Assembly (NCBI GenBank): GCA_016795035.1
Contig: JAEUIT010000040.1
Span: 1-64,000 of the forward strand
DNA from: Phycisphaerae bacterium
Lineage (GTDB): Bacteria; Planctomycetota; Phycisphaerae; Phycisphaerales; SM1A02
Direction of reading: 5' to 3'
Length of the DNA: 64,000 nucleotides
A program made the translations under genes and the position numbers. The notes beneath the pieces were generated by a model that saw only the letters and a list, made by a program, of their open reading frames with translations, was not told the DNA's origin and did not search any database. Positions 5,482 to 33,103 of the stretch are shown piece after piece; the stretch's first letter is position 1, and the number at the start of each line of letters is the position of its first letter.

Positions 5482-5864
5482 CGACCGTGCTCCCCTCTCT
5501 TGCGTCCGGCCTCGCATCGGTTGCGCTTGCCGCATCGGACGCGGTCGTCTCGCCGGCCGATCCGCGCCTCGTGCAGGTCGCGCTTGTCATCAGCGTGCTC
5601 CTCTTCGTCATCGGCCTCATCGGCTTCCTGACGCGCCGCAACATGATCATGATGTTCCTCTGCACGGAACTCATGCTGCAGGCGGCGTGCATCGCGTTCG
5701 TGACGTTCGGACGCATGCACATGAACGCCTCGGGGCAAGTCTTCGTGATCTTCATTCTCACGGTCGCCGCGGCGGAAGCGGCGCTCGCTCTCGGCCTTGT
5801 CGTACTCCTCTATCGCAAGCGCGAGACGCTTTCGAGCGAGGCGTGGGCCGAGTTGAAGGAGTAG
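5478..5864 (+). CDS. nuoK: NADH-quinone oxidoreductase subunit K
   Basis: Small three-helix membrane subunit of complex I. The two buried glutamates used in proton translocation are present: E64 in LCTELMLQAACIAF and E100 in VAAAEAALALG. The 128 residues exceed the usual 100 because of a 28-residue N-terminal extension (TTVLPSLASGLASVALAASD) that could be an extra helix or a signal-like segment. The ATG overlaps the nuoJ stop (ATGA), which supports this start. The C-terminus is hydrophilic. Confidence 0.93.
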   Translation: MTTVLPSLASGLASVALAASDAVVSPADPRLVQVALVISVLLFVIGLIGFLTRRNMIMMFLCTELMLQAACIAFVTFGRMHMNASGQVFVIFILTVAAAEAALALGLVVLLYRKRETLSSEAWAELKE

Positions 5865-5921
5865 CCGCTCGACGGAACCGCCGGCGCGAATGCTTCGCGC
5901 TCGGCCTGAAGGACTAGGCGC

Positions 5922-8201
5922 ATGACGCACCTCGCGACACTTTTCCCCTCACTTCCGTCCGCCCTCGCGGGCGACGGCGATGCGCACGGAACGGCGCATA
6001 GAGCCGCGGAGGGGGCAGCGGCGGCCGCCACCTGGATCGGGGGCGCGACCGCGCATCCTGAATACAGCTGGGCCGGCTGGATCCTGCTTCTGCCGCTCCT
6101 CTCGGCGGTCTTCTGCTTTCTCTGCGGCGCCTTCCGCGTCAAGAACAAGCTCCCCGCGCTCGTGACGATCGCGGCGCTCGGCAGCGCGTTCGGTCTCGTC
6201 CTCACGCTCTACCTGAAGTACGACCCGACGCACGCCAGCGGCCCGATGACGGTCCACCTCTTCGACTGGATCCGCGTCGTCTGGGGTGAGAAGCCCGGGC
6301 AATCGTTCGTCGCCGACTGGTCGCTCTACATCGACGGCCTGACGCTCTTCTGGATGCTCTTCGTCACCGGCCTCGGCACCCTCATCGCGATCTTCGCGAG
6401 CGAGTACATGGAGTCGGACGTCGGCGGCAACTACTGCCGCTTCTTCGGCGCTGTCGGCATCTTCCTCTTCGCGATGGGTTCGCTCGTCATGGGCGGCAAC
6501 CTCGCGCTTCTCTACCTCGGCTGGGAAGGCGTCGGCGTCGCGAGCTATCTCCTCATCGGCTACTACTACGGCAAGCCGACCGCGGTCGCCGCGGCGAAGA
6601 AGGCCTTCGTGATGAACCGCGTAGGCGACCTCGGTCTCCTCGTCGGCATCTACCTCACGTGGCGCCACTTCGGCTCGATCGACTACGCGACGATCTTCAA
6701 GGCTTGCAGCGAGACGATCGCCAACGGCAGCCATGGCGGCGACTGGACGAAGGGACTCATCCCCTACTTCCTGATGCTCGGCGCCTTCGGCAAGTCGGCG
6801 CAGATCCCGCTCTTCACCTGGTTGCCCGACGCGATGGAAGGCCCGACGCCGGTCTCCGCGCTCATCCACGCGGCGACCATGGTCACGGCGGGCGTCTATC
6901 TCATCGCTCGCCTGTACCCGCTCTTCCTCCTGCACCCGCACGCACTGCACACGGTCGCGTGGATCGGCGGCCTGACCGCGTTCCTCGCCGCGACGATCGG
7001 CATGATGCAGTACGACATGAAACGGGTCTTCGCGTACTCGACCGTGTCGCAGCTCGGGTACATGTTCCTCGGCCTCGGCGTCGGCACGACCTTCGGCGCC
7101 TGCTACCACGTCTTCACGCACGCCTTCTTCAAGGCGCTCCTCTTCTTGGCCTCGGGCGCCGTCATGCACGGCTTCGCGGGCCAGCTCGACATCCGCAAGA
7201 TCTCCGGCCTCCGCAACGTGCCGGGCTTCAAGATCGTCGCGTGGACGATGCTGATCGGCTGCCTCTGGCTGTCGGCGCTTCCCTTCACCGCGGCCTTCTT
7301 CTCGAAGGACACGATCCTCCTCGTCGCGATGACCGACGAGTCGCACGGCAACCGCATCCTCGCGTGGCTCGGCCTTCTCACCGCGCTCATGACCGCGTAC
7401 TACACGTTCCGCGTGTGGTTCCGCGTCTGCGGCGGCGAGACGGCGTATCAGCCGGGCGACGAGGCGCACGGCCACGACGACCACGGGCATGACGCCGACC
7501 ATGGCCACGGTCATGGCCACAGTCATGGCCATGCGGCCGACGCGCACGGCTTCCATCCGCACGCGCCGCGGTTTGCGATCAACGGCGTCCTTCTCCTCTT
7601 GGCGGTCGGCGCGATCCTCGCGGGTCTTCCCGGGCTGATCGAGTTCCTGAAGATGGGACCGAACTGGGCCGCCGAGATGATCGCCGCGAGCTCGGCGACG
7701 ATCGGCGTTCCCAATCTGACGGAGGGGCTCGCTGGCGGCCACGCCGAACACGCGCATCACGCGACCGTCCTCGGCATGGACGGCCACACCGCGATGTTCC
7801 TTCTCTCGACGGTGGCCGGATTCGGCGGTATCGCGATCGCCGCGTACTACCACCTTGTCCGGCGCCGCGCGGCGGAAACGTTGAAGCAGGCGCTCCTCGC
7901 GAACCCGCTCATCGGATGGCTCCCGCGGGCGCTCGAGAACAAGTGGTACGTCGACGAACTCTACGACGCCCTCTTCCGCTATCCGATCGTCGTCTTCGGC
8001 GGCCACGTCCTCGCGTGGATCGACCGCTACATCTTGGACGGCGGCATCATCAACGGCATCGCCCGCATCCCCGCGTGGATCGGACGACTCTTCCAACCGC
8101 TCTACAACGGTCTCCTCCAAGGCTACGCCATCACGATGGTCGGCGGCATCGGCCTGATCCTCGCATGGATCGTCTATGTCTGGATGAAGGGGGGCATCTG
8201 A
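5922..8201 (+). CDS. nuoL: NADH-quinone oxidoreductase subunit L
   Basis: Antiporter-like proton-channel subunit at the far end of the complex I membrane arm. Key residues are in place: E202 in WEGVGVASYLLIGYYYG (TM5) and K291 in FGKSAQIPLFTWLPDAMEGP (TM7), followed by SALIHAATMVTAGVYL. The 759 residues exceed the E. coli protein (613). The excess lies in a 40-residue N-terminal lead-in and in a histidine-rich loop (about residues 515-550, many HGH and DHGH units) between late helices. The C-terminal amphipathic helix region expected of NuoL is present and ends in a last helix (VGGIGLILAWIVYVW). nuoM follows after one base. Confidence 0.95.
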   Translation: MTHLATLFPSLPSALAGDGDAHGTAHRAAEGAAAAATWIGGATAHPEYSWAGWILLLPLLSAVFCFLCGAFRVKNKLPALVTIAALGSAFGLVLTLYLKYDPTHASGPMTVHLFDWIRVVWGEKPGQSFVADWSLYIDGLTLFWMLFVTGLGTLIAIFASEYMESDVGGNYCRFFGAVGIFLFAMGSLVMGGNLALLYLGWEGVGVASYLLIGYYYGKPTAVAAAKKAFVMNRVGDLGLLVGIYLTWRHFGSIDYATIFKACSETIANGSHGGDWTKGLIPYFLMLGAFGKSAQIPLFTWLPDAMEGPTPVSALIHAATMVTAGVYLIARLYPLFLLHPHALHTVAWIGGLTAFLAATIGMMQYDMKRVFAYSTVSQLGYMFLGLGVGTTFGACYHVFTHAFFKALLFLASGAVMHGFAGQLDIRKISGLRNVPGFKIVAWTMLIGCLWLSALPFTAAFFSKDTILLVAMTDESHGNRILAWLGLLTALMTAYYTFRVWFRVCGGETAYQPGDEAHGHDDHGHDADHGHGHGHSHGHAADAHGFHPHAPRFAINGVLLLLAVGAILAGLPGLIEFLKMGPNWAAEMIAASSATIGVPNLTEGLAGGHAEHAHHATVLGMDGHTAMFLLSTVAGFGGIAIAAYYHLVRRRAAETLKQALLANPLIGWLPRALENKWYVDELYDALFRYPIVVFGGHVLAWIDRYILDGGIINGIARIPAWIGRLFQPLYNGLLQGYAITMVGGIGLILAWIVYVWMKGGI

Positions 8202-26589: not shown

Positions 26590-28209
26590 GTGCTCCGTGT
26601 CGTCGTTTCCATCCTTCTCACGACGGCGTTCTTCGCGCGCGGGGCCTTCGCCGACGACCTCTTCGAGGGCGCGATCCCCACGCTTCGGATCGTCCTCACC
26701 GAGGCCGCGTCGCAGTCCCTGCGGGAAGACGCGCGGCGCTACGTCGGCGCCACGCTGACCGACGGCGAGACCGCGTACGCCGACGTCGCCGTTCGGCTGA
26801 AGGGCTCCGCGGGGAGCTTTCGCGACCTCGACGATCGTCCGGCGTTCACCGTGCACATGCGGCGATTCGCCGGGCGCGAGGCCCGCGACCGCGACTGGCG
26901 CGGGCTCATCAAATTCCACCTCAACAACTCCGTGCAGGACGAATCCCTGCTCCACGAGGCGATCGCGTACGACGTCTTCCGCGTTGCAGGCATCGCGGCG
27001 CCGCGCGTGGGCCACGCGCGGGTCTTCCTCGACGGCCGCGACCTCGGGCTCTATGTCGTGAAGGAAGGCGCGGACAAGCGCTTCCTCCGGCGCGCCTTCG
27101 CCGACGAGGGCGCGACGCTCTACGACGGCGGTTTCCTCACCGACATCGACGGCGAACTCGAGCGCGACGAGGGCTCAGGGCCCGACGACCGCGCGGCGCT
27201 CACGGCGATCGTCGAGGCCGCGCGCGATCCCGATCGCGCCCGCGGCCGCGAGCGGCTCGAGGCGCTCGTCGATCTCGAGTCGTTCTTTCGCTTCGTCGCG
27301 CTCGAGCGGATGCTCGGCCATTGGGACGGGTACGCGAACGGGACGAACAATTACCGCATCGTGATTCGCACGTCGGACGGCAAGGCGGTCTTCGTGCCGC
27401 ACGGCCTTGACCAGTTGCTCATGGACGACCTCGGTCTCTATGACGACGCCGCGTCGCTCCTCGCCGACCGAGTGCTCTCGGATGACGTTTTGCGGTCCCG
27501 GTACCGCGCGGCCGTGCGCTCCGCGTTGCCGCTCGTGGCCGATCCGCGCGGCATGCTCGCGACGGTCGATCGGAGTACGCCAAGGCTCGACGCGGCCTTC
27601 GTGGCGATCGGCCCGGAGGCGGCCGAGGCGCAGCGCGAGCGCGTCGCGGATCTGCGCCGACGGATCGAAGAGCGCGCCGCACGATTGCGCGAGCGCGCCG
27701 ACGAGCCCGATCCCCCGCTCCTCGCCTTCGACCGAGGCCGCGCCGACCTCGGTCGCTCGAGCGACGGCTGGTACGAGGTGCGCGAGTTCGGCGACGCGGT
27801 CTTCGCCGCGTTCGCGTTGCGCGAGCCGGAAGGCGAGCCCCTGCAGGTCCTCGCGATCACGAGCGGCCCGAGCCACGGCACGCGGGCGTGGTGGCGCCGC
27901 GCGGTCGTCTTGCCTGCGGGGCGCTATCGCTTCGTGGCCCGGGTGCGCGCGAGCGACCTCGGCCCCGGCGATCCCGGCGCGGTCGGTGACGCCCTGCCCG
28001 AGATCGGCGTGCGGCTTCGGGCGCTCGGCCGCGAGTGCGACGCCGCGAGCGCGTGGGTCGATGCGGCGAACGACGGTTGGTCGACGCTCTCGGTGCCGTT
28101 TGAGATCGCCGCCGATCGGCGCTCCGTGGAGCTCGGCGTGGAGTTCGCGTCGGGCGCGGGGCACGCGTACGTGGACCGGGCGTCGGTGCGCGTGGAGCGG
28201 GAGGAGTAG
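26590..28209 (+). CDS. CotH-like protein with signal peptide
   Basis: 539 residues beginning with a signal peptide (MLRVVVSILLTTAFFARGAFA) and therefore exported. The CotH kinase-like fold runs over about residues 30-330: VAVRLKGSAGSFRDL, WRGLIKFHLNNSVQDESLLHEAIAYDVFR, GLYVVKEGADKRFLRR, and the signature HWDGYANGTNNYRI followed by VPHGLDQLL. CotH proteins are atypical protein kinases in spore coats, but in planctomycetes they are common secreted proteins of unknown target. The last 170 residues form a beta-rich domain, probably a carbohydrate- or protein-binding module. The start is a GTG. It converges on the large synthetase gene. Confidence 0.85.
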   Translation: MLRVVVSILLTTAFFARGAFADDLFEGAIPTLRIVLTEAASQSLREDARRYVGATLTDGETAYADVAVRLKGSAGSFRDLDDRPAFTVHMRRFAGREARDRDWRGLIKFHLNNSVQDESLLHEAIAYDVFRVAGIAAPRVGHARVFLDGRDLGLYVVKEGADKRFLRRAFADEGATLYDGGFLTDIDGELERDEGSGPDDRAALTAIVEAARDPDRARGRERLEALVDLESFFRFVALERMLGHWDGYANGTNNYRIVIRTSDGKAVFVPHGLDQLLMDDLGLYDDAASLLADRVLSDDVLRSRYRAAVRSALPLVADPRGMLATVDRSTPRLDAAFVAIGPEAAEAQRERVADLRRRIEERAARLRERADEPDPPLLAFDRGRADLGRSSDGWYEVREFGDAVFAAFALREPEGEPLQVLAITSGPSHGTRAWWRRAVVLPAGRYRFVARVRASDLGPGDPGAVGDALPEIGVRLRALGRECDAASAWVDAANDGWSTLSVPFEIAADRRSVELGVEFASGAGHAYVDRASVRVEREE

Positions 28210-28409: not shown

Positions 28410-31400
28410 TTAGCCGATGCGCGCCGCCGGAGCCCCCTCGTACGTCTCGCCCGCCGCCAGCTGGTCGTTCTTCATCACCACGCTGTGCGGCGCGACGTGC
28501 GCCCCGTCGCCGATCTCGACGCCGTAGAAGACCACCGCGTTATGTCCGATTGTCGCGCCCGCGCCGATCGCCACGTGGTCGATCTTCAGGACGCGATCCT
28601 CGAACGTGTGCGCCTGGAAGTGGCACACCACCGTCGCGTCGTCGCCGATCGAGAGCATGTCGGGGTCGACGACCTGCGCGAAGCCCGTACCCAACACCAC
28701 GTTGCGGCCGACCTTCACGCCGACCGAGCGGAGGAACCACGCGAGGAAGACCGTGCCCTCGAGCTGCAGCAACGTGGAGCGCGCCCACATCGTCCAGGCG
28801 ACGTAGAGGAAGTCCCACCGGCTGCACCAGCACGACCAGAGCGGATGCCGCCCCGGCTTCACGCGGCCTAACAGCAGCCACTTCAGCGCGATGATCGCGC
28901 CGACCGTGACCGCGATCGCGGCGAGCGTCGCGAGCGGCACGACAACTAGAAGGAGCCCCGCGCGCGACCAACGTTCCGCCGCATGGCCGATCGTCTCGAT
29001 CCACCACCAGCCGACCGCGAGCGGCAGGAGCGGGATCGCGAAGCGGAGCGACTCCCAGAAGACGCGCGACACGACGCGGACGAGCGGCGGGTCGAACGTG
29101 ACGCGCCGATCCGCCTCGACGACGTCGCGCGACGGCAGCTCCATCGGCGGATGCCCGAACCAACCGGTGTTCGGCGCGGCGAGCGCGCGGTCGGCGACGG
29201 TCGAGACGCCGACGAAGAGCCCGTCGGGCCACGCGTGGCCGGCGGGGACGACGCAGTGATTCCCGAGAAAGGTGCCGGCGCCGAGCGACGTATCGGCGAT
29301 CGTGACCGTTCCGCGCCGCACCACCGGCGACGCGAAGTAGACGCCGTCCGCGAAGAAGCTCTCGCGGCCGATCGAGACCGACTCGGGGACGACGTCGATG
29401 ATCGTCGAGACTTCGCAGGTGCGGCCGATGCGCATGCCCGCAAGCCGCAGCCACCACGGCCAGAAGAGCGTGCCGGAGAGCCAGCGGCCCGCGGCGTCGA
29501 CCGCGGCGGTCTTCGCCCAGACGCCGGCGTACTCGACGCTGTAGCGGCTGATGACGCCGGGCGCGATGCGACCGAGGAAGCGAAGCGAGAGCGCGTGGGC
29601 CACGAGCGCGATCGGCACGAGCACGACGGTCGCGAGCGCGATCCAGCCGAAGCGGGTCGCGTCGAGGATGTCAGTCAGCGTTGCAGCCGCCCGCCCATCC
29701 CGGCGCATGACCTCGACCGCCACGAGCAGCACCGCGACCCACAGCGTGGACGACGCCACGTGCTGCACGAGCCGCGCGAGGAGCATCGCCACGCCGTGCA
29801 TCCAGGGCGACAGCGCGGCGCCGCGGGTGCAACGCGGAGTCGCCTCCGCCGCACCGGTCGCGCGGGCGGGCACGCCGTCGTAGCGCCGATCGGGCTCGGT
29901 CGCCGTCCCCTCCTTCAGCCAGCTCAACGGCGCGAGGTCGACGCCCGGGGCGACGCGCACGCCCCCGTCGACCGTCGCGCGGACGCCGATCGTCGCGCCG
30001 GCGCCGATCGAGATGGGGCGGATCGCGAGGTGTCCGTCGTCGAACTCGACGAGCTGCAACGACGAGTCCTGTGCGAGCGTCACGTCGTCGCCAAGCTCGA
30101 GGAGGTCCCAGCCGCCGCGCCGGAGATCGACGCCGCGATGGATGTGGACGCGCTCGCCGATCGTCGCGCCGAGCGCCCGGAGCGCCGAGGCGTGAAACGT
30201 GGTGCCTTCGAGGGTGCGCCACGGGATCAGCCGCGCGGCGCGCTCCACGATCCAGTGGCGGAGATACTGGCGGCTTCCGATCGCGATGCGACCGGGCTCG
30301 TAGCGGCCGACGAGCGCCGCCTTGAGGATCGCGGTCACGAGCACCGCGAGCGGCGCCCACGCGAGCGTCGCCGCGAACGTCAGGAAGGGCGCGAGGAGGA
30401 CGGCGACGGTCGGACCGAAGGTCGCCAGGAGGGCCGGTGCCACGGCGAACGCGACGGCGTAGGACCCGAGGCCGACGACCGAAGCGCCGACGACGAGGCA
30501 GCCCGCCTGCAACGCGGTGTTGACGACGCTCGCCCGTGCGGCGCCGCGCGGGGCGCGCCGTTCCTGGGTCGTGGCCGCCCCCACTCCCGCCGCCATTCCC
30601 GACGCGGCGATCCGGGCCGCGAGGCGCTCCGCCGTGCGAAGCTCATACAGGTGCCGCACCGCGATCGCCGCGCCGCGCGGATCGCGACGGAGGTCGCAGA
30701 GGACGGCGACCGCGCCGAGCGAGTCGCCGCCGAGGTCGAGAAAGAAGTCGTCGGTGGGCTTCGCGGCCGGAGCCTTCGCGGCGCGGCGAAAGGCCGCGAG
30801 GACGAGCGCGAGCGCGTCGCCGTCGGGCGCGCTCGTCGTTGCAGCCGCGTCGCCGAGGGCGGCCGGCGCGGGCGCGAGACGCGGCAGGCGCTTGCGGTCG
30901 ATCTTCCCGCCGACCGTGCGCGGGAGCGCGTCAAGGAATCCGATCCGGCTCGGCACCATGTACGACGGGAGGCGCGCGAGAAGCGCCGTACGGAGCGCGT
31001 CGGGCTCGGGGGGCGCGGCGCGGTCCTTCGGAACGACGTGCGCGACGATCGCGTCGTCGACGACCGCAGTCGCCGCCTCGCGCACGCCGTCGAGCGTCGC
31101 CAGGTGCGCGTCGATCGCCGGAAGCTCGACGCGATAGCCGCGCACCTTCACCTGACCGTCCAGTCGGCCGAGATACTCGAGGTCCCCGTTCGGGCGCCGC
31201 CGCGCGAGGTCGCCGGTGCGATAGAGGCGGCCGTAGGGCTCGACGAACGGAAACTTCGCCTGGGTGAGGTCGGGCCGATTGCGGTAGCCGCGGGCGAGGC
31301 CGACACCGGCGATGCAGAGTTCGCCCTCGTCGCCGTCCGGCACCTCGGCGAGGGACTCGTCCATGATGAACGCGCGATGGCCGTCGACGGGCTGGCCGAT

Positions 31401-32459
31401 CGACACCGGCTGGCCGGGCCGCATGCGGCCGCGCACGACCGTCACCGTGCATTCGGTCGGGCCGTAGCCATTCTCGAGCCAGCGGCCGTCGCCCCAAAGG
31501 TCGGAGAGGTCCTGCGGCAGTGCCTCGCCGCCGACATACAGGAGCTTGAGATGCGGCAGCTCGCGCTTCGGGTCGGCGCAGCCGGTCGTGCGCAGCAAGG
31601 TGGGCGGCGGACAGAGGACGCTGATCCGCTCGCGGGCGAGCCACGGCACGAGATCGGGGCCGAGGCGCACCGTCTCGTCGTCGAGGGGGACGAGCGTCGC
31701 GCCGACGGCGAACGCGAGCCACGACTCCTCGAGCGACGAGTCGTACGCGGGCGAGCTGCACTGCGCCACGCGATCGGCGCGGGAGAGGCGGAAGCGCGCG
31801 ACGTCCGAGCGGACGAGGTTCGCGATGCTCCCGTGCTCGATCATCACCCCCTTCGGTTCGCCGGTCGTGCCCGAGGTGTAGATCACGTAGGCGAGCGCGT
31901 GCGGCGAGATGGCGCGGCGGTCGCGGGTGTCGTCGGTGCGCCCGCAGCTCGCCTGCTGCACGTCGAAGCGCGGACGATCGCCGATCGCGGCGCCGAAGCG
32001 CTCGAGCGTGGTGGCGTCGCCGAGGACCGCGCAGGCGTCGGCGTCGGCGAGGATCGAGCGCACGTGCTCGAGCGGAAAGGAGGGATCGACGCAGGTGAAT
32101 GCGGCGCCCGCATGCCACGCGGCCAACTGCGCCGCGTAGAGGAGCGGCGAGTCGCGCCCGATCGCGATCGCGACGATCGGCTCGTCGCGCCGGGCGACCG
32201 CCGCCGCGAGTTCGCTCGCGATCGCGCGGGCCGCGCGGTCAAGGCCCGCGTACGTGACGTGCATCCGCGCCTGCCGCGACGACGACGGCGGCAGCTCGAT
32301 CGCGACGCGATTCCCGTGCGCGGCGACGACGCGATCCAACACGTCGAGAAGGTGCTCGTCCGCCCCGGCCCTGGCCTCGTTGGCGCGGTGCGGCCCGTCG
32401 GGGCTCGCGGACGCCGCGGAGACGTGGGAGGCACGGGTGGCGTCCGAGACGTCCGTCAT
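28410..32459 (-). CDS. Pls/PosA-type nonribosomal peptide synthetase (adenylation, carrier, membrane LbH domains)
   Basis: 1,349 residues. The N-terminal adenylation domain (about 1-530) has YTSGTTGEPKG, YGPTE and the C-terminal lysine in TVGGKIDRKRLP. The carrier domain carries its pantetheine serine, S580, in FLDLGGDSLGA. The rest is membrane-embedded, with paired helices alternating with three left-handed beta-helix (hexapeptide) segments, the layout of epsilon-poly-lysine synthetase (Pls) and its relatives, which polymerise a basic amino acid without a condensation domain. By eye the specificity residues read D-S-E-C-Y-G-G-V-T-K; the glutamate in third place is typical of pockets for lysine or ornithine. 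The ATG overlaps the stop of the SET gene. The product is unknown. Confidence 0.85.
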   Translation of the reverse strand: MTDVSDATRASHVSAASASPDGPHRANEARAGADEHLLDVLDRVVAAHGNRVAIELPPSSSRQARMHVTYAGLDRAARAIASELAAAVARRDEPIVAIAIGRDSPLLYAAQLAAWHAGAAFTCVDPSFPLEHVRSILADADACAVLGDATTLERFGAAIGDRPRFDVQQASCGRTDDTRDRRAISPHALAYVIYTSGTTGEPKGVMIEHGSIANLVRSDVARFRLSRADRVAQCSSPAYDSSLEESWLAFAVGATLVPLDDETVRLGPDLVPWLARERISVLCPPPTLLRTTGCADPKRELPHLKLLYVGGEALPQDLSDLWGDGRWLENGYGPTECTVTVVRGRMRPGQPVSIGQPVDGHRAFIMDESLAEVPDGDEGELCIAGVGLARGYRNRPDLTQAKFPFVEPYGRLYRTGDLARRRPNGDLEYLGRLDGQVKVRGYRVELPAIDAHLATLDGVREAATAVVDDAIVAHVVPKDRAAPPEPDALRTALLARLPSYMVPSRIGFLDALPRTVGGKIDRKRLPRLAPAPAALGDAAATTSAPDGDALALVLAAFRRAAKAPAAKPTDDFFLDLGGDSLGAVAVLCDLRRDPRGAAIAVRHLYELRTAERLAARIAASGMAAGVGAATTQERRAPRGAARASVVNTALQAGCLVVGASVVGLGSYAVAFAVAPALLATFGPTVAVLLAPFLTFAATLAWAPLAVLVTAILKAALVGRYEPGRIAIGSRQYLRHWIVERAARLIPWRTLEGTTFHASALRALGATIGERVHIHRGVDLRRGGWDLLELGDDVTLAQDSSLQLVEFDDGHLAIRPISIGAGATIGVRATVDGGVRVAPGVDLAPLSWLKEGTATEPDRRYDGVPARATGAAEATPRCTRGAALSPWMHGVAMLLARLVQHVASSTLWVAVLLVAVEVMRRDGRAAATLTDILDATRFGWIALATVVLVPIALVAHALSLRFLGRIAPGVISRYSVEYAGVWAKTAAVDAAGRWLSGTLFWPWWLRLAGMRIGRTCEVSTIIDVVPESVSIGRESFFADGVYFASPVVRRGTVTIADTSLGAGTFLGNHCVVPAGHAWPDGLFVGVSTVADRALAAPNTGWFGHPPMELPSRDVVEADRRVTFDPPLVRVVSRVFWESLRFAIPLLPLAVGWWWIETIGHAAERWSRAGLLLVVVPLATLAAIAVTVGAIIALKWLLLGRVKPGRHPLWSCWCSRWDFLYVAWTMWARSTLLQLEGTVFLAWFLRSVGVKVGRNVVLGTGFAQVVDPDMLSIGDDATVVCHFQAHTFEDRVLKIDHVAIGAGATIGHNAVVFYGVEIGDGAHVAPHSVVMKNDQLAAGETYEGAPAARIG

Positions 32460-33103
32460 GGCGCGGCGCGCTGCGCCTCGCGCGATCGCTCGCGGGCTAG
32501 TTGTCGCAGGTGCGGCGCGACGTGCGCCGAGATGCGGCGTCGCTCGGTTTCGGTGAGGTGCTTGTAGCCCCGCACCACGCGCGCCTTCGCCGGCTGCGCG
32601 AGGCATCGGGCGCAGCCGCACGGGAACGGGACCGACATGTCCCACTCGGTCGTCGTGTAGTCGAAGGTGATCTCGCCGCCGCGGCGGATCGGTCGGATCG
32701 CGACGAGCCGCACCGGCGCGGTGTCGTCGCCGTCGTCGTCCGAGGCGCCGAACGAGAACGCGGCGTTCGGCTCGCACGCGTGGTTCAGGTAGCGCCAGAA
32801 GTAGGCGTCGTCGTCGTCGCCGGCATCGGCCGGCGGCGCGAGGTGCTGATCGCGCCCGATCTGCACCGAGTAGCGGTCGGGCGTCGCGGCCACGACGCCA
32901 TCAAGTTCGAGAATCGTCGCGCCCACGTCGATCGCATGAGCTGCAACGAGGTGACGCGCGCCCGAGATGCGGGCAACAAGAACGGTCGCGGGCGCCGGCG
33001 CTCGCAGGGCGAGACGACGCGCGACGGACGGACGAGACATTCCGAGGACTCCGCGCACCGACCCGCTCGTCAACCATGACGCGGCGCGTCGGAGCAATTC
33101 CAT
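32456..33103 (-). CDS. SET-domain protein (putative lysine methyltransferase)
   Basis: 215 residues. The SET core is recognisable: the substrate/cofactor loop YFWRYLNHACEPNA, then GGEITFDYTTTEWDM, then a post-SET-like cysteine cluster PFPCGCARC that could bind zinc. SET enzymes methylate lysine amino groups. The C-terminus is helical and basic. It lies upstream of the synthetase with a four-base ATGA overlap, so the two are made together; this points to a shared substrate (see findings). The start could also be the internal ATG at 33040, which removes 21 residues. Confidence 0.82.
   Translation of the reverse strand: MELLRRAASWLTSGSVRGVLGMSRPSVARRLALRAPAPATVLVARISGARHLVAAHAIDVGATILELDGVVAATPDRYSVQIGRDQHLAPPADAGDDDDAYFWRYLNHACEPNAAFSFGASDDDGDDTAPVRLVAIRPIRRGGEITFDYTTTEWDMSVPFPCGCARCLAQPAKARVVRGYKHLTETERRRISAHVAPHLRQLARERSREAQRAAP

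Follow-up and report, generated by a model that had tools for sequence, protein, structure and literature searches.

A SET-domain methyltransferase and a Pls-like synthetase form a conserved bacterial gene pair that may polymerise a methylated cationic amino acid

In the window, by which we mean the whole stretch of 64,000 nucleotides analysed here, a gene for a SET-domain methyltransferase lies directly upstream of a gene for a large synthetase that resembles the poly-lysine and poly-ornithine synthetases Pls and PosA. SET and synthetase are a conserved pair in several bacterial phyla. Judged from sequence, the pair probably polymerises a methylated cationic amino acid that would be new to polymers of this kind, with both substrates and product being predicted. 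The source is a Planctomycetota assembly of 4.86 Mb, which holds one phosphopantetheinyl transferase-family gene. The pair consists of the following features:

28410..32459, minus strand: Pls-like synthetase gene, 1,349 aa, ATG at 32459 (domain and motif matches)
28413..30542, minus strand: C-terminal membrane region, putatively for condensation, with three repeats that each combine long helices and a left-handed beta-helix (TIGR02353, hydrophobic segments, AlphaFold2)
30609..30803, minus strand: carrier (PP-binding) domain with the GGDSL phosphopantetheine site (PF00550, 1.5e-7)
30870..32336, minus strand: adenylation domain, residues about 42-530 (PF00501, AMP-binding, 6.8e-63; TIGR01733)
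30903-30905, minus strand: codon of the pocket residue K519
31440..31742, minus strand: pocket stretch from D240 to T340 of the code DSECYGGVTK (alignment with homologues)
32456..32459, minus strand: ATGA overlap of 4 bp between SET stop and synthetase start (sequence)
32456..33103, minus strand: SET-domain methyltransferase gene, 215 aa, the upstream partner (PF00856, 2e-9)
32570..32983, minus strand: SET domain and C-terminal zinc cysteines, residues about 41-178 (motifs)

A CotH-kinase-type gene (26590-28209, plus strand) converges on the synthetase gene and shows no sign of belonging to the pair.

Domains and family of the synthetase

The first-pass annotation of this DNA had described a 1,349-residue synthetase with adenylation, carrier and membrane beta-helix parts, overlapping the SET gene by four bases, and both descriptions hold: the parts are matched in Pfam and NCBIfam, and the overlap is the ATGA at 32456-32459. 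Pfam matches comprise AMP-binding, AMP-binding_C, PP-binding and C-terminal hexapeptide repeats, and the motifs of a working enzyme are all there (YTSGTTG..KG, NGYGPTE, YRTGD, K519 and the GGDSL carrier site). The protein has the architecture of Pls and PosA, in which an adenylation and a carrier domain precede a C-terminal region that combines membrane helices with three beta-helix parts in tandem. The C-terminal region was modelled with high confidence (AlphaFold2, pLDDT 93.9, pTM 0.94) as three repeats, each made of long helices and then a left-handed beta-helix, which agrees with the threefold domain modelled for PosA (PMC10522769). The nearest solved folds are mostly hexapeptide-repeat acyltransferases, with TM <0.2 of the query, and no solved Pls C-terminal domain was among the fold-search matches listed for this region.

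The NCBIfam model for the terminal domain of the “Pls/PosA NRPS” family (TIGR02353) is matched over its full length (4-695 of 695), but the scores of 348.1 and 350.7 bits fall below the curated cut-off of 423.1, whereas the canonical Streptomyces proteins listed reach 665-889 bits. Identity to these canonical proteins is about 38% in the adenylation domain and 29% in the C-terminal region, while homologues from several phyla are 39-56% identical and form, with the window synthetase, a clade apart from the canonical proteins (support 100). The synthetase would work like the Pls/PosA kind, yet is not filed as a member of the family, because its score lies under the curated cut-off and its pocket matches none of the known substrate codes. 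Seven relatives (L094, L126, L060, L125, L086, L084 and L093) carry a fused C-terminal membrane acyltransferase of about 350 aa (HGSNAT_cat, DUF418 or Acyl_transf_3), which suggests acylation of the product at the far side of the membrane.

Linkage of the two genes across genomes

Among 80 homologous loci fetched in a scan of named genomes, with patterns biased to close relatives and including the glycine of the pocket code (G331), 44 carry SET upstream in the same orientation. These paired loci belong to Planctomycetota, Actinomycetota, Acidobacteriota, Verrucomicrobiota, an Armatimonadota MAG and others; the Actinomycetota include Lentzea, Kutzneria, Amycolatopsis, Streptomyces nanshensis and others, and Lentzea terrae, Kutzneria viridogrisea and Amycolatopsis vastitatis are cultured carriers. 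The separation is mostly -50 to +60 bp, and the exact 4 bp overlap recurs in seven other loci. Of the 60 genomes nearest to the source, six hold a full-length synthetase homologue, with SET upstream in five of the six (one cut by a contig end); the sixth, G026, has a synthetase homologue without an adjoining SET gene.

Co-occurrence was assessed by genome searches, whose first-look filter scores few candidates per genome, so that some homologues may be missed. In Pseudonocardiaceae the same 15 of 249 genomes carry SET and synthetase, adjacent in 15/15 (p 2e-24); SET and the C-terminal domain are 1.9-2.0 kb apart, which corresponds to the length of the adenylation and carrier domains. In Planctomycetota (343 genomes), all nine genomes with a strong SET match (E <1e-50, to a profile, A3, built from synthetase-linked SETs and hence leaning to linked ones) hold the synthetase (Fisher p 3e-14); here the scores drop from 8e-53 to 2e-27 with nothing between. 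Six of these nine pairs are adjacent, two are adjacent but cut by a contig end (G260 and G284), and in G145 the genes lie on different contigs. By contrast, canonical Pls exceeds the cut-off in 109 of 199 Streptomyces genomes and none of the 109 has a strong SET match; the synthetase of the sole Streptomyces genome with a strong SET belongs to the window-type clade. Chance neighbourhood is ruled out by these tests, and the functional pairing proposed in the first-pass annotation, which had named adjacency in related loci as the check, is borne out.

Clustering of all neighbour genes around the homologous loci revealed no other neighbour conserved across phyla. An exporter, a hydrolase and a decarboxylase were considered as further conserved partners and rejected, since the other common neighbours are confined to close relatives or belong to large common families. 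The congener G001 keeps the pair (54% and 41% identical to the window genes, compared with 87% for a nearby PEP carboxykinase) with different immediate neighbours, and the glutamine amidotransferase adjoining the window SET gene is not kept there. At one locus (L103) two tandem SET genes (5657-6250 and 6281-6961) precede a single synthetase.

The SET protein

The SET protein (AlphaFold2 model, pLDDT 86) contains the motifs YSVQ, W103-RYLNH-C110-PN, F147-D-Y149..T152-E153 and P159-F160-C162-x-C164..C167. H108, C110, F147, Y149, E153, P159, F160, C162, C164 and C167 are identical in 44/44 linked SETs, and W103 in 43/44. We take F147 to occupy the Phe/Tyr switch position, where DIM-5 and G9a carry Phe. 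Enzymes with Phe here typically di- or trimethylate an amine, and the invariant Phe of the linked SETs would allow such multiple methylation.

In a profile search against solved structures the best match is BurB (71 bits, 8e-19), with SET2 and MLL1 next (57 bits), while the structural ranking does not separate BurB from the histone SETs (Z 12.7 vs 12.8). In the tree, all synthetase-linked SETs fall into one clade (support 99/95), which includes six copies that do not adjoin the synthetase, in genomes that have one. A larger branch (support 96/90) unites the linked SETs with BurB and a few bacterial Y..TE SETs, with MLL1 and SET2 outside; BurB is a long branch and its placement inside this group is unsure. 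BurB and the related MSMT enzymes are SET-type methionine S-methyltransferases of DMSP synthesis, and BurB methylates free methionine (PMC12542666; PMC7496086). Besides being the closest solved relative by profile, BurB shares with the window SET the Y..TE stretch (Y124..T127-E128 in BurB) beside the substrate-binding loop, and is likewise a small single-domain SET enzyme whose biosynthetic pathway involves an adenylation domain. The two differ at W103 (S88 in BurB) and F147 (M122 in BurB) and are separated by a deep branch, and no S-methylmethionine decarboxylase or DMSP gene was found conserved beside the pair when the neighbours at homologous loci were clustered. Since BurB holds methionine by main-chain atoms only, methionine and lysine cannot be told apart as substrates by sequence. 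The histone-type SETs (MLL1, SET2 and SETD8) have the SET fold (Z 12-13), NHxCxPN, the catalytic Tyr, the zinc cysteines and the Phe/Tyr switch position in common with the window SET, but lie on another branch, do not have the T-E after the catalytic Tyr, and have a small residue in place of the Trp before the NH motif. The initial assignment of the SET protein to enzymes that methylate lysine amino groups is thus too narrow, as by profile score its nearest solved relative is BurB, which acts on free methionine, and the histone enzymes MLL1 and SET2 fall outside its branch. Another Y..TE-type SET gene, in Streptomyces G452 (contig 19, L182), lies beside an AMP ligase, a ketosynthase and a thiamine-diphosphate enzyme, and may also serve the biosynthesis of a small molecule.

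The substrate pocket

Alignment places D240, S241, E244, C283, Y308, G310, G331, V339, T340 and K519 in the pocket, so that all ten residues of the code read by eye in the first pass, DSECYGGVTK, are right, and the glutamate taken to fit a basic substrate (E244) is supported as well. The code is identical in 74/85 scorable homologues. Comparison with the characterised pockets had been suggested, and neither the Lys code of Pls nor the Orn code of PosA is matched: canonical Streptomyces codes are DAESIGTVVK (Lys, Pls) and DFECLSVVTK, and that of PosA is DMEHNGTVSK (PMC10522769). The codes for Lys, Orn, Dap and beta-Lys, taken from our own alignment and from PMC10522769, are all unlike that of the window synthetase. 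Relative to the Lys pocket, a Tyr (I to Y) and, at the distal site, a Gly (T to G) are gained.

The same ten residues occur in the Bdellovibrionales CHPA homologue OFZ39577.1 (Bdello_A), whose isolated adenylation domain did not prefer the diamino acids tested and modestly activated Arg; its authors took the Arg activity as a hint of a larger analogue as substrate (PMC10522769). We found neither methylated lysines nor S-methylmethionine among the substrates named there. A fetched Bdellovibrio locus (L115) has the same pocket and lies inside the synthetase clade, but, unlike the window genome, the fetched Bdellovibrio genome has no SET match. Arg and the methyl-lysines are of similar length. 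Poly-lysine is an unlikely product, because this identical pocket showed no preference for diamino acids in the assay as reported there (PMC10522769).

Relatives without a SET gene

Homologues without a strong SET gene include Novosphingobium, Sphingomonas and a Bdellovibrio/Myxococcota group. In raw counts the pocket appears to be held more tightly where SET is present, being intact in 52/53 SET-bearing and in 18 of the 28 informative SET-less genomes (p 6e-5, uncorrected for kinship). Drift is correspondingly commoner without SET (10/28 vs 1/53), but the difference is not significant when kinship is counted, and a pocket change tied to SET loss was set aside as an explanation, since its significance was gone after pairing by kinship. 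One SET-less clade, mostly Gemmataceae (L061, L082, L083, L100, L102 and L106), has drifted to DS(E/A/S)xHGDVVK and probably uses another substrate. In the synthetase tree SET-bearing members stand on both sides of the midpoint root and about 13 changes are needed, which fits an old pairing with repeated loss. The SET-less relatives that keep the pocket are the chief objection to a SET enzyme that makes the monomer: they would either obtain the monomer from another source or indicate that SET acts after activation. Replacement of SET by another methyltransferase was rejected, as the SET-less loci offer one upstream class-I methyltransferase (L062) and no pattern; other upstream genes at these loci encode a PucR regulator, a Fic protein and an AMP ligase. 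At two related loci with no SET gene adjoining, an ABC exporter-type gene lies 55 bp downstream of the synthetase (L098:6588-8381 and L131:8607-10403).

Proposed pathway and alternatives

We propose that SET methylates a free amino acid and that the synthetase activates and condenses the charged monomer, the two genes forming a minimal biosynthetic unit; we give this reading a probability of about 0.45. In the first step SET would use SAM to turn the free amino acid into a permanently or more strongly charged monomer, for which N-epsilon-methylated lysine, up to trimethyl-lysine, is the most likely candidate and S-methylmethionine the second. In the second step the adenylation domain would bind this monomer by D240 (alpha-amine), E244 (cation) and the aromatic Y308, activate it with ATP and load it onto the carrier. 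Finally, by analogy to Pls and PosA, the three membrane-anchored beta-helix repeats seen in the model would pass the aminoacyl group to the amine of the chain under construction. The product would be a cationic oligomer or polymer of methylated residues, made at the membrane and probably exported across it. Because complete methylation of the side-chain amine prevents the usual isopeptide linkage, a chain of trimethyl-lysine or S-methylmethionine would have to grow through the alpha-amine; with mono-methylated lysine, linkage by the side chain is still conceivable. We prefer methyl-lysine to S-methylmethionine because the pocket takes Arg better than shorter diamino acids (PMC10522769), because loss of the distal polar Thr of the Lys code and gain of an aromatic residue suit a long methylated ammonium, and because F147 of SET is the Phe found in amine di- and trimethylases, whereas S-methylmethionine is a candidate through the relation to BurB alone.

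The best-surviving alternative, which we consider unlikely, is that an unmethylated basic amino acid (Arg or a longer diamino acid) is polymerised and that methylation by SET follows, on the carrier or on the completed polymer. SET would then be an optional decoration, lost without a change of the pocket, and indeed SET-less homologues keep the pocket. We know of no polyarginine from such enzymes. Modest Arg activation by the identical pocket of Bdello_A is consistent with tailoring (PMC10522769), and the fused acyltransferases of the seven relatives suggest that products are modified in other lineages. Against it stand the closest solved relative of SET by profile, BurB, which acts on a free amino acid, and the larger drift of the pocket in SET-less lineages in the raw counts. 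The first-pass annotation had proposed an operon that makes a basic homopolymer and methylates it or its carrier-bound monomer; of this the pairing stands, poly-lysine is opposed by the pocket and the Bdello_A assay, and methylation of the chain or the carrier-bound residue is less favoured.

Less probable still is a SET enzyme that methylates a protein lysine, in the synthetase or a partner, and so switches or protects a pathway with an unmethylated polymer. Most SET enzymes are protein lysine methyltransferases, and the window SET has their catalytic and zinc residues along with the Phe switch, but the histone-type SETs lie outside the branch of the window SET. A lysine of the synthetase as target was rejected: in the alignment the seven conserved lysines are equally kept in SET-bearing and SET-less relatives, and no column separates the two. 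An ordinary poly-lysine or poly-ornithine synthetase beside an unrelated neighbour is very improbable, for, although the domain order and the D and E of the code are common to both, the pocket is unlike the Lys, Orn, Dap and beta-Lys codes, the clade is separate, the score is below the cut-off, and preservation of the pair across phyla contradicts an unrelated neighbour. A poly-lysine synthetase combined with a histone-type methylase is not the best reading.

Significance

Cationic poly(amino acids) serve as food preservatives and antimicrobials. To our knowledge, all natural ones are built from unmethylated diamino acids. Our literature search found no paper describing the SET-synthetase pair, and the earlier remark that no N-methylated poly-lysine pathway of this make-up has been described holds within the literature searched. 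We tentatively suggest, at somewhat short of even odds, a widespread and undescribed pathway in which methyl-lysine or S-methylmethionine made by SET is polymerised by a dedicated Pls-like clade into a quaternary-ammonium, N-methylated or sulfonium poly(amino acid). A dedicated methyltransferase would, if this is true, lead to a new class of polymer, whose charge in the fully methylated case would be independent of pH. The pair also suggests what kind of substrate the orphan pocket DSECYGGVTK may take, a question left open in PMC10522769. As the pair occurs in cultured actinobacteria, both enzymes are directly testable now, and if the reading is true it would extend SET enzymes beyond the marking of proteins to the making of building blocks for natural products, for which BurB sets a precedent.
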